This document shows positions 2,634 through 23,303 of a stretch of DNA of 36,955 nucleotides, piece after piece; position 1 is the stretch's first letter, and every line of letters starts with the position of its first letter. The position numbers and the translations under genes are program-made. The notes beneath the pieces were generated by a model, which ran no database searches, was not told where the DNA came from, and saw only the letters and a program-made list of their open reading frames with translations. This DNA comes from Nitrospirota bacterium (GTDB lineage: Bacteria > Nitrospirota > Thermodesulfovibrionia > Thermodesulfovibrionales > Magnetobacteriaceae), in NCBI GenBank assembly GCA_015233895.1, contig JADFXG010000033.1, forward strand, positions 1-36,955, read 5' to 3'.

Positions 2634-2647
2634 ACAGATTGCAATTT

Positions 2648-3207
2648 GAGACCGTTGCAAAAATATTATAACACCAAAGTTGAGTTCAAAAATATAACAA
2701 AATGTTATAGAAAAAGGATGAGATTGCCACACCCCCTGCGGGGGTTCGCAATGACGGCGTGGGCTGTGCGTGGGCGTACCTATCCGTCATTACGAGGAGC
2801 GATAGCGACGTGGGCTGTGCGTGGGCGTACCTATCCGTCATTACGAGGAGCGATAGCGACGTGGGCTGTGCGTGGGCGTACCTATCCGTCATTACGAGGA
2901 GCGATAGCGACGTGGGCTGTGCGTGGGCGTACCTATCCGTCATTACGAGGAGCGATAGCGACGTGGGCTGTGCGTGGGCGTACCTATCCGTCATTACGAG
3001 GAGCGATAGCGACGTGGGCTGTGCGTGGGCGTACCTATCCGTCATTACGAGGAGCGATAGCGGCGTGGGCTGTGCGTGGGCGTACCTATCCGTCATTACG
3101 AGGAGCGATAGCGACGTGGTAATCTCATCATTATTATATTTTAGGCTGCTACTCGGTATTAATTGGGAAATACTTTTCCCACATTTTGGGAATTTTGCAA
3201 CGGTCTC
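2648..3207 (+). mobile_element. GAGACC element copy 1, expanded (7 internal units)
   Basis: Bounded by the 15-bp inverted repeats GAGACCGTTGCAAAA / TTTTGCAACGGTCTC and flanked on both sides by AATTT, a perfect 5-bp target duplication. It is 560 bp, which is the 254-bp basic element plus six extra 51-bp units. No transposase is encoded; long frames inside it are repeat artefacts. It differs from most copies in not lying in an ATACC-N5-GC site. Confidence 0.9.
2759..3115. repeat. 51-bp tandem repeat, 7 units, inside GAGACC copy 1
   Basis: Seven units of 51 bp begin GTGGGCTGTGCGTGGGCGTA. The sixth unit ends GGCGGC instead of GCGAC. The unit length keeps several frames open on both strands and produces spurious repetitive ORFs. 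Single-unit versions occur in most other copies. Confidence 0.95.
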
Positions 3208-3222
3208 AATTTACGTGAAGTT

Positions 3223-3238
3223 TGTTCCACGTGTTGAA
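3223..3238. promoter_or_regulatory. Possible parS-like half site
   Basis: TGTTCCACGTG matches the left 11 bases of the classic parS consensus (TGTTNCACGTGAAACA). The right half is imperfect (TTGAAC). It lies about 3.3 kb from the ParB gene. It could be a ParB-binding site or chance. Confidence 0.2.
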
Positions 3239-3308
3239 CCGGTTGTTGTGCGGGTGGAGCTGTAACCAAAACATTTTAATTATTATCTAAATTTAGGAGG
3301 GAATAACA

Positions 3309-3553: not shown

Positions 3554-3823
3554 TCAATCGAAAAGGTCTGAATGCGTGCCGCTACGCTCAAAAATTATAC
3601 TCTGGCCGTCTATCTTGTAAATCAACAGCCAGTCAGGTTTTATGTGACATTCTCGCCGTCCGGCGTAATTACCTTTAAGCGGATGGTCTTCATACTTTGG
3701 ATCAAGCGTTCCTCCGTTGCCAGGTTGCATCATGATTTCTGATAATTGTTTTAAATCGGCGCCGCGCTTTAGCATCTGCTTAATGTCTTTCTTAAACTGC
3801 CCGGTTCGAACAGGCTTGTACAT
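3554..3823 (-). CDS. YafQ-family mRNA interferase toxin
   Basis: 89 aa, in the RelE/YafQ superfamily of ribosome-dependent mRNA endonucleases. YafQ hallmarks are visible: an N-terminal QFKKDIKQMLKRG helix, DHPLKGNYAGRRECHIKPDW, LLIYKI and a terminal RSGTHSDLF. The histidines of HPLKG, CHIKPDW and THSDLF match the catalytic set of the family. Its ATG shares one base with the stop of the 245-aa gene upstream, so the two are translationally coupled and the larger protein is the probable antitoxin. No ordinary DinJ-type antitoxin is present. Confidence 0.85.
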   Translation of the reverse strand: MYKPVRTGQFKKDIKQMLKRGADLKQLSEIMMQPGNGGTLDPKYEDHPLKGNYAGRRECHIKPDWLLIYKIDGQSIIFERSGTHSDLFD

Positions 3824-4560
3824 TATTCGTGAATTACCAAGTCTTTCAACAAATCATCAATGCTCTCAAACCGGGTTAAGTCCTCTTCTCTGTCAGTCTT
3901 TTCGAAAGTCTCAAGTGTGGTTTTGTTTGGGCTCCAGCCATATTCAACGAGCATCTTGCCGTATTCATTTAACGCATAAGGCCGTCTACCGGAACTACTT
4001 GAACCACCTTTATACTCTAAGAAACCGGCTGAAAATAACGCATCGGCAACAGGCACATCACTTTGATAGCCCTCACGAAAACTTCTAAGGTACTCTAAAT
4101 CTCCTGTGTAACACCTGTTGATTAAGGATGCCAGACGCATAGCTTCTTTGTAGCCAATATAACCTTTGATGTGTGCGGACATGATGCGGCCAATAATTTT
4201 TGGCTTAACAGTGTCTTCGCTTTTTTCTATTATAAGGAGGATGGTTTCTCCAAAATGCTCAAGCTCTCCATCGCTTTCAAGCCTCTCGGTAAACGCTGTG
4301 CGCTCTTGTTGTGTTGTGGAATCTAAGCCTGTTAAAAAATTCACAATTTTACGGACATAAATCTCATGTCCTATATCCTTTCCGGCTTTCCTGAGAGCAC
4401 TAAGCATACCAAGCACAGGAATACCGTCCAATCCACCAGATTCTATTACCGCATTTACTTCAACAACGTCATCATTGCTGGCGATAAAATCCGTCAATTC
4501 TTTACTGCGCATTGATTCGGCAACCGATGAGGCTGCGCTTTTCTCTAAACTTAACGACAT
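3823..4560 (-). CDS. 245-aa protein with antitoxin-like tail, coupled to YafQ
   Basis: The N-terminal about 200 residues (IPVLGMLSALRKAGKDIGHEIYVRKIVNFLTGL is the core; quoted pieces IPVLGMLSALRKAGKD and EIYVRKIVNFLTGL) resemble an uncharacterised helical family that I associate loosely with Abi-alpha-like phage-related proteins; this is memory, not a search. The last 20 residues (EEDLTRFESIDDLLKDLV) look like the C-terminal neutralising segment of RelE/YafQ antitoxins. It overlaps the toxin gene by 1 bp and starts 27 bp after the ABC ATPase gene. My reading is a large antitoxin whose N-terminal part is an unusual sensor or regulator domain. It could also be an unrelated gene that only happens to be coupled. 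Confidence 0.55.
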   Translation of the reverse strand: MSLSLEKSAASSVAESMRSKELTDFIASNDDVVEVNAVIESGGLDGIPVLGMLSALRKAGKDIGHEIYVRKIVNFLTGLDSTTQQERTAFTERLESDGELEHFGETILLIIEKSEDTVKPKIIGRIMSAHIKGYIGYKEAMRLASLINRCYTGDLEYLRSFREGYQSDVPVADALFSAGFLEYKGGSSSSGRRPYALNEYGKMLVEYGWSPNKTTLETFEKTDREEDLTRFESIDDLLKDLVIHE

Positions 4561-4587
4561 TCTTAATTCTACTATGTAATCTTACCT

Positions 4588-5403
4588 TTAGTAAAGTGCC
4601 CCCGCTGCAAAGTGATATATACCATTAGGGCCTTTATACACCTCAAGCGGTACACCAAACAGTGCCGAGACATTTTGGCTTGTTAAAACCTCCTCCTTTG
4701 GCCCTTGCATAAATATCCTGCCGCCCTTTATCATCACGATATTGTTAATAGACGGTAGCACCTCTTCAATGTGGTGAGTGATAATAATGATTGTGTGATG
4801 CAGGGATACACGAGCCATCAACTCGAAAAACCTCAACTGTGCCGCAACATCAAGACCGGTTGTGGGCTCATCAAGCATCAGCACCTCTGGCTCTGAGATG
4901 AGCGCACGCGCAATCAGACACTGGCGTGCCTCACCGCTTGACATGTCACAGAGGGCATGGTTACGCAGCGATTGAATTTCGAATTTTTCCATCAGCGCAT
5001 CCGCTTTAGCTATCACCCCCACTGTCAGCTCATCCTCCGGCAGATACCCAACGGAGTCGAATAAACCGGTCAGTACGATTTCTATTCCCGGCATATGGGA
5101 TGCCTGGAGTTTGTGTTTTTCGTCCAGATCGTTTGTGATAATCCCAATGTGCTTTTTAACGTCCCAGATGCTGTACCTGGTTTGGCCAAAGAGTTTGACC
5201 GATGGGCCCTTGCCGCTCCAGGCGGCATACGTGTCGCCCGACAGTAGTTTCATAAGCGTGGTTTTGCCTGCTCCGTTTGGGCCTATAATAGCGGTGTGTT
5301 GTCTGTGCGCAATTGACAGTGATATGTCATATAAAATCGGTTGTCCGGACCGGACAACCGAGGCTTGGGTTAATTCAAAAATCTCATCCACAGGCTCCGC
5401 CAT
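4588..5403 (-). CDS. ABC transporter ATP-binding protein
   Basis: 271 aa. Walker A GPNGAGKTT is at residues 41-49, followed by an ABC signature variant MSSGEARQCLIARAL, Walker B VLMLDEPTTGLD and the switch histidine in IIIITHH. The layout resembles lone ATPases of the ModF/YlmA type, and no permease gene is in the window. The signature reads SSGEA in place of LSGGQ, a modest divergence. The start overlaps the end of the SIS-domain gene by 20 bp, so they are one operon. The transported substrate is unknown. Confidence 0.88.
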   Translation of the reverse strand: MAEPVDEIFELTQASVVRSGQPILYDISLSIAHRQHTAIIGPNGAGKTTLMKLLSGDTYAAWSGKGPSVKLFGQTRYSIWDVKKHIGIITNDLDEKHKLQASHMPGIEIVLTGLFDSVGYLPEDELTVGVIAKADALMEKFEIQSLRNHALCDMSSGEARQCLIARALISEPEVLMLDEPTTGLDVAAQLRFFELMARVSLHHTIIIITHHIEEVLPSINNIVMIKGGRIFMQGPKEEVLTSQNVSALFGVPLEVYKGPNGIYHFAAGALY

Positions 5404-6051: not shown

Positions 6052-6091
6052 GAACTTTTTATCTGCAGATTGCGCAGATTTCCACAGATAG
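6052..6091. repeat. Short interspersed repeat, copy on the minus strand
   Basis: The reverse complement reads ATCTGTGGAAATCTGCGCAA then TCTGCAGATAAAAAGTTCT. It matches, with a few changes, the repeats at 21521-21569 and 25812-25860. Function unknown. Confidence 0.6.
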
Positions 6092-6097
6092 TATCTT

Positions 6098-6501
6098 ATA
6101 CCAATTCGAGACCGTTGCAAAATTCCCAAAATGGGGGAAAAGTATTTCCCAATTAATACCGAGTAGCAGCCTAAAATATAATAATGATGAGATTACCACG
6201 TCGCTATCGCTCCTCGTAATGACGGATAGGTACGCCCACGCACAGCCCACGCCGTCATTGCGAACCCCCGCAGGGGGTGTGGCAATCTCATCCTTTTTCT
6301 ATAACATTTTGTTATATTTTTGAACTCAACTTTGGTGTTATAATATTTTTGCAACGGTCTCTATTCGCAGTCAGAAGTATAACAAGGCGGCAAGGAGAAA
6401 GCGACGCAGGCGTACTTTTACAGGGGATTCCCCTTCAGGGGAGACGTTGAGGAGCTTTTGACGCAGCCAACGAAGTTAGACGATTGAATGCGGATTGGTA
6501 T
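6098..6501. mobile_element. ATACC-ended element R3, carrying a nested GAGACC copy
   Basis: Starts ATACC (6098-6102) and ends GGTAT (6497-6501). The interior begins GCAGTCAGAAGTATAACAAG and ends GACGATTGAATGCGGATT. The same interior occurs at 26414-26797 and, reversed, at 30820-31202. Removing the GAGACC copy at 6108-6361 leaves about 145 bp with no ORF. It is MITE-like. Confidence 0.75.
6108..6361 (-). mobile_element. GAGACC element copy 2 (254 bp)
   Basis: Full 254-bp element in minus orientation with one 51-bp unit. It is nested in R3 as ATACC-AATTC-[element]-TATTC-GC; the 5-bp flanks differ at one base. Confidence 0.92.
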
Positions 6502-22777: not shown

Positions 22778-23044
22778 ATGAGTGGAACGATTATAGAAAA
22801 ACCACCGGAGGCTGTTTTAAGCAATCCCGACGTCGAACGAATCATCGAGATAATGCCGGAGCTGTCTCCTGAGCATATTAAAGAAGCCGCTGATTTCATA
22901 GCGTATCTTGCCGAGAGAGAGCGTAAACATAAAATATTTGTTGAAGAGACTTTGGCCGCTGCCGCTAATCCTGAAAAAATTACCTTTAAAAATTCCAAAG
23001 CCTTAATAAAGGCGGCTCTGGAGTCTGTCTCTGAAAATTCGTAA
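22778..23044 (+). CDS. Antitoxin of a RelE/StbE-type module
   Basis: 88 aa. EKPPEAVLSNPDVERIIEIM and ELSPEHIKEAADFIAYLAER form a helical antitoxin-like protein (DUF2281-type flavour). The toxin frame starts inside its last codons. The C-terminus FKNSKALIKAALESV probably wraps the toxin. Confidence 0.72.
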   Translation: MSGTIIEKPPEAVLSNPDVERIIEIMPELSPEHIKEAADFIAYLAERERKHKIFVEETLAAAANPEKITFKNSKALIKAALESVSENS

Positions 23045-23303
23045 TCTTGACGCTGACAAACCGTTTCTTAAAAAGCTCGGCAAACTATTAAAAAGCTCTC
23101 CGGAGTTAACTGATAAAACAGATACAGTTTTCGATTTACTACAGGAAAATCCTTTTGAGCCTTCTTTGAAAACACATCCTTTGACCGGCTCCTTAAAAGG
23201 CAAATATGCCTGTTCAATTACTAAGGACATTCGTATCATATTTGAGCTGTCAGACAACACAGTTCACCTGCTCAACATAGGCTCTCACGACGAGGTTTAT
23301 TGA
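23031..23303 (+). CDS. RelE/StbE-type mRNA interferase toxin with a probable CTG start
   Basis: 90 aa. KIRNLDADKPFLKKLGKLLK, LQENPFEPSLKTHPLTGSLK, GKYACSITKDIRIIFEL and LLNIGSHDEVY closely follow the RelE/StbE toxin pattern ending in HDEVY. Between the in-frame stop upstream and the conserved region there is no ATG, GTG or TTG; CTG at 23031 has GGAG seven bases upstream. I therefore chose CTG. It overlaps the antitoxin by 14 bp, so low-level coupled translation is likely. Confidence 0.8.
   Translation: MKIRNLDADKPFLKKLGKLLKSSPELTDKTDTVFDLLQENPFEPSLKTHPLTGSLKGKYACSITKDIRIIFELSDNTVHLLNIGSHDEVY

Follow-up and report, generated by a model that had tools for sequence, protein, structure and literature searches.

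The window analysed here, i.e. the whole 36,955-nt stretch of the Nitrospirota bacterium contig JADFXG010000033.1, carries a YafQ-family toxin gene preceded by an open reading frame for a 245-aa protein. This arrangement raises two questions. Is the 245-aa protein an antitoxin of the DinJ type, and what is the role of its long N-terminal part? The features on which the answers depend are as follows.

3554–3823, minus strand: YafQ-family toxin, 89 aa (PF15738; alignment with PDB 4ml2; dN/dS)
3823–4560, minus strand: putative chimeric antitoxin, 245 aa (open reading frame; homology of tail and N-domain; dN/dS 0.35 against L010, a locus in another genus)
3826–3930, minus strand: predicted DinJ-type neutralising tail, residues 211–245, PNKTTLETF... 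(identity to the tails of L013 and L014; tail-profile survey)
3937–4560, minus strand: N-terminal 208-aa domain (N-domain) of an unnamed family (standalone homologues end here; no match to a known family)
3937–4143, minus strand: probable winged-helix subdomain, about residues 140–208, boundary approximate (model of L045, transferred by alignment)
3554–4596, minus strand: whole block, probably transferred, ~1043 bp, beginning 36 nt before the ATG and ending with the YafQ stop (homology to L010 begins and ends at these edges)
4566–4595, minus strand: promoter-like TTTACT-N18-TAGAAT (conserved at unrelated loci; 9 of 12 consensus matches, from a consensus scan only)

The 89-aa protein matches Pfam family PF15738 over positions 1–88 of the 88-position profile (E = 1.5e-31; 109 bits, cut-off 30), and in its alignment with the YafQ structure 4ml2 (2.1e-19) His47, His60, Asp64, His84 and Phe88 are conserved. 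We take these residues to be the equivalents of His50, His63, Asp67, His87 and Phe91 of E. coli YafQ, which are presumably catalytic or conserved ones. Placed by its family, the 89-aa YafQ is a putative ribosome-dependent mRNA-cleaving toxin. As the earlier note described, its start shares one base with the stop of the 245-aa gene, in the form TAATG (TAA + ATG).

A DinJ-type C-terminal tail is present in the 245-aa protein, directly upstream of yafQ. The antitoxin-like end proposed from the sequence is real and homologous to DinJ, but it is longer than the 20 residues claimed and comprises residues 211–245. This segment is 77–78% identical to the tails of L013 and L014, which are ordinary 88-aa ribbon-helix-helix (RHH) DinJ antitoxins of a sister genus; L013 matches PF04221 (7.2e-14) and its gene is directly followed by YafQ. 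When the 245-aa protein was searched against 395 Nitrospirota genomes, three further fused proteins were matched and, as separate hits, the ends of small antitoxins; residues 211–245 matched the DinJ tails of related genomes with E values of about 1e-11. A tblastn search of plasmids with this protein matched residues 211–243 to a Zymomonas plasmid protein annotated as RelB/DinJ, and matched residues 10–213 to standalone "hypothetical proteins" on plasmids, e.g. in Aminobacter (35%) and Synechococcus (34%). The standalone proteins terminate where the DinJ tail starts in the 245-aa protein. Since they stop there and the tail homology begins, the fusion point (...GKMLVEYG / WS / PNKTTLETF...) is clear. 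Unlike L013, the 245-aa protein has no PF04221 RelB/DinJ match in Pfam; it would function like DinJ, yet by profile it lies outside the RelB/DinJ family. An assembly artefact was rejected as the source of the fusion, since other genomes also contain it as an open reading frame.

No Pfam, NCBIfam or PADLOC family was found for residues 1–208, nor any convincing PHROG or PDB sequence match, and Panacea did not occur among the Pfam matches down to E = 1 for the full protein or E = 10 for the N-domain. A resemblance of the N-domain to Abi_alpha was also unsupported, with 0 of 13 family members matching Abi_alpha in Pfam; together, the 13 members diverge too much for their alignment to be used in scans. 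Relatives of the N-domain are located on conjugative plasmids, on IncFIB replicons with dnaE (phage-plasmid-like) and on a few IMG/VR viral contigs, one of the eight viral-contig scans, that of the phage-plasmid subset, giving relatives. They are also present in 14 of 5426 E. coli genomes, and the single one that was read adjoins tail-fibre genes. This is the standalone N-domain gene of E. coli M8 (L083, 8001–8642), which lies in a cargo-like stretch of the chromosome, in a prophage region. The description of the first part of the protein as uncharacterised and possibly phage-related was thus a fair one, the N-domain being a separate family of ~208 residues with members in all these settings. 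Standalone N-domain genes have no consistent toxin neighbour.

The model of the full 245-aa protein was poor (pLDDT 48) and was left out of the fold search. Instead, the E. coli relative L045 was modelled from a five-sequence alignment, giving a mean pLDDT of 65.6, with about 72–88 over residues 121–210 and, except for the last three residues, over the probable winged-helix part. The model has a helical part followed by a helix-hairpin-helix end, and the 50 best-scoring structures for it are mostly MarR, ArsR or TubR winged-helix proteins (Z 5–6 over about 60 residues, rmsd 2.3–3.1). A Foldseek search against the PDB gave no match below 0.001. Because the Z values are modest, the winged helix is a lead rather than proof. 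We propose that the N-domain probably consists of a helical part and, C-terminal to it, a MarR-like, DNA-binding-like winged helix, and the modelled structure points rather to a winged helix than to a sensor.

The fusion and the toxin belong to one block. L010 holds a complete fusion and an intact YafQ with the same block edges as in the window, and its neighbours on either side are cobalamin genes (names read from translations). L011 has the same left edge and the greater part of the block's length, but its fusion contains a TAG and its YafQ is frame-shifted. In total, the block is present at unrelated loci in three genomes, its edges coinciding with the gene pair; both genes are intact in two genomes only, the copies in G241 and on contig C51 being broken. 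The latter copy (L008, G000:C51, 1467–1740) is a second, degenerate version of the gene pair within the home genome, in which most of the N-domain has been deleted between two GAAT sites with the reading frame kept; it contains a TAG, and YafQ is disrupted. Between genera the dS of the module is about 0.6 whereas that of cbiB is saturated, which suggests that the block was probably transferred horizontally as a unit. The −10 box of the promoter-like element ends 5 nt before the ATG of the 245-aa gene, and a leaderless mRNA is therefore predicted.

The dN/dS of YafQ against L010 is 0.28 (bootstrap 0.15–0.47), and the values for the N-domain are 0.25 (0.15–0.39) and 0.37 (0.25–0.54). With all bootstrap limits below 0.6, these codon comparisons indicate that the fusion and the toxin are under purifying selection. 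The earlier idea of an antitoxin tail on a different N-terminal domain is hence borne out by the homologous tails, the standalone homologues ending at the fusion point, the conserved multi-locus block and the purifying selection.

According to the earlier note, a separate DinJ elsewhere that neutralises this YafQ, together with a 245-aa protein that does not bind it, would speak against the proposed pairing. In the 65-contig assembly of the home genome, a RelB search detected no intact DinJ; the sole match was a truncated remnant of an RHH DinJ at C10:9388–9489. DinJ was recovered from the related genomes that served as positive controls, G325, G132, G148 and G381. The two other YafQ-family pairs read in the home genome have DUF2281-like antitoxins that lack the DinJ tail.

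The N-domain also occurs with another toxin. L025, on contig JADFYB010000056.1 of a Nitrospirae MAG from the same genus, has the same N-domain (86%) at the corresponding place, flanked by an ABC-transporter gene and a radical-SAM-like gene, as read from translations. After its N-domain, this protein keeps the DinJ tail for ~26 residues from its start and continues with a second, UPF0175-type tail (76% to L030). The toxin that follows is of the PIN family (PF01850, 2.1e-10) and stands in place of YafQ. The toxin and the tail are thus, as far as sequences tell, exchangeable on one N-domain, as in this sister species. The L025 block may be an independent insertion, since it is positioned differently relative to the neighbouring repeats. 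In a survey with a profile of the 33-residue DinJ tail, 40 of the 395 Nitrospirota genomes were matched. Most N-terminal parts at the tail loci read are RHH domains. At L057, L059, L068 and L071, the tail is located on a 37–39-aa N-terminal part of one kind, beside YafQ (for L057 and L059, the same genes as L016 and L019, respectively, the DUF2281 matches are weak and below the Pfam cut-off); at L073 it is on another short helical part, with YafQ after it; the remainder have the 208-aa domain. YafQ follows nearly all tail loci read that are not at contig ends.

Compared with known systems, the window pair shares with the type II DinJ–YafQ pair of E. coli (PDB 4ml0, 4q2u) the toxin family, the gene order, the gene overlap and the C-terminal neutralising tail, the last predicted here. 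In contrast, its antitoxin has a 208-aa domain instead of the RHH DNA-binding/dimerisation domain and has no Pfam RelB match. Classical antitoxins are built from two modules, one that binds DNA and a linear one that neutralises the toxin, and the multidomain PanA (Panacea) antitoxins have Phd-C, PAD1 or ZBD as linear neutralising regions (PMC10440598). On our analysis, the window pair fits this modular logic, with an uncharacterised N-domain. As in PanA, a non-classical domain bears a linear neutralising segment that can be exchanged, and the toxins vary; unlike in PanA, the N-domain has no Panacea or other convincing Pfam match, and the tails come from DinJ and UPF0175. UPF0175–PIN pairs such as L031 in G096 are of the type from which the L025 tail and toxin come, but the UPF0175 domain is intact in L031, whereas the L025 protein has the 208-aa domain and a partial DinJ tail in its place. 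The DUF2281-like antitoxins with a DinJ tail (L057, L059, L068 and L071) likewise have a non-RHH N-terminus that bears the tail and precedes YafQ, although this N-terminus is only 37–39 aa long.

We consider it probable that the locus is a type II pair with a chimeric antitoxin, in which the DinJ tail neutralises the toxin and the N-domain is a carrier and probable repressor, the whole being a mobile and exchangeable unit. The best reading of the 245-aa protein is a type II antitoxin whose ribbon-helix-helix has been swapped for another, probably regulatory, domain. In this mechanism, an unrelated protein of ~208 aa would have acquired the C-terminal tail of DinJ at its end and so taken the place of the RHH DNA-binding/dimerisation domain. 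Judging from homology and the known complexes, the tail would fold onto YafQ and block its active site as in DinJ–YafQ, while the N-domain would carry and stabilise the tail. Autoregulation could come from the C-terminal winged helix of the N-domain, which would probably repress the pair's own promoter, and any sensing from the helical part, which may set the timing of antitoxin inactivation; these two activities and the neutralisation of YafQ are what we infer for the 245-aa protein. The pair would move between loci as one ~1 kb unit. The sequences themselves show the fusion, the homology of the tail, the unit structure, the selection and the exchange. Counting against this reading are the small number of genomes (two) in which both genes are known intact, the modest scores of the winged-helix model and the inconsistent neighbourhood of the standalone N-domain genes.

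How much the N-domain contributes may be questioned. A Phd-C tail fused to SUMO suffices to neutralise its toxin, a SUMO tag being enough for a functional tail (PMC10440598), and the carrier seems to matter little, since the DinJ tail is found on several unrelated N-termini. The 3′ half of dinJ–yafQ might therefore have been fused by chance to an existing gene, with an N-domain that stabilises the tail and is not regulatory. We regard such a passive carrier as somewhat unlikely, because the N-domain is itself under purifying selection, was retained in the sister species despite the change of tail and toxin, and has a winged-helix-like end in the model. Rather unlikely is an abortive-infection trigger, in which the N-domain would sense the entry of a phage or plasmid and release the toxin: standalone relatives do occur in phage, prophage and plasmid cargo regions and a sensor role has been proposed for Panacea (PMC10440598), but the N-domain lacks a PADLOC match, none of the 13 family members matches Abi_alpha in Pfam, and no ligand or trigger is known.

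It is very unlikely that the locus is a decaying relic of an accidental fusion, with a YafQ that is non-toxic or neutralised by another antitoxin. The broken copies L008 and L011 and the further YafQ-family pairs of the home genome would suit such a relic. However, two genera have intact frames with a dN/dS of about 0.3, the YafQ residues aligned with 4ml2 are conserved, the search of the home genome detected no intact DinJ, and the two other pairs read there use DUF2281-like antitoxins lacking the DinJ tail. The chimeric type II antitoxin is thus the reading we retain. With little probability, it could be extended to a general chassis, in which the 208-aa domain, as helical sensor plus winged-helix repressor, would bear exchangeable toxin-specific tails and toxins and form a new Panacea-like hub antitoxin domain, the standalone phage and plasmid forms being regulators of the same operators or signals.

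These loci form a natural domain-swap series. At least four types of N-terminus bear the same neutralising tail next to YafQ, and a single N-domain is combined, at loci that correspond between sister species, with tails and toxins from two unrelated families. The DinJ tail on the N-termini of L057, L068, L071 and L073 represents further partner swaps. The series allows a direct test of whether linear neutralising tails are portable and evolve by grafting, and it brings to light an antitoxin architecture missed by DinJ searches.

The window contains a second YafQ-family toxin (23046–23297), which together with an 88-aa antitoxin with a weak DUF2281 match makes up an ordinary-looking pair at 22778–23297 on the plus strand. 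Direct repeats, both tandem and dispersed, that translate as 'TDRYAHAQPTSLSLLV' or 'GCAWAYLSVITRSDSDV' are located at 2646–3265 and 6059–6354 of the window, with copies in L003 and L025. They are found in many places in this genus, and the fusion–YafQ block sits among them.
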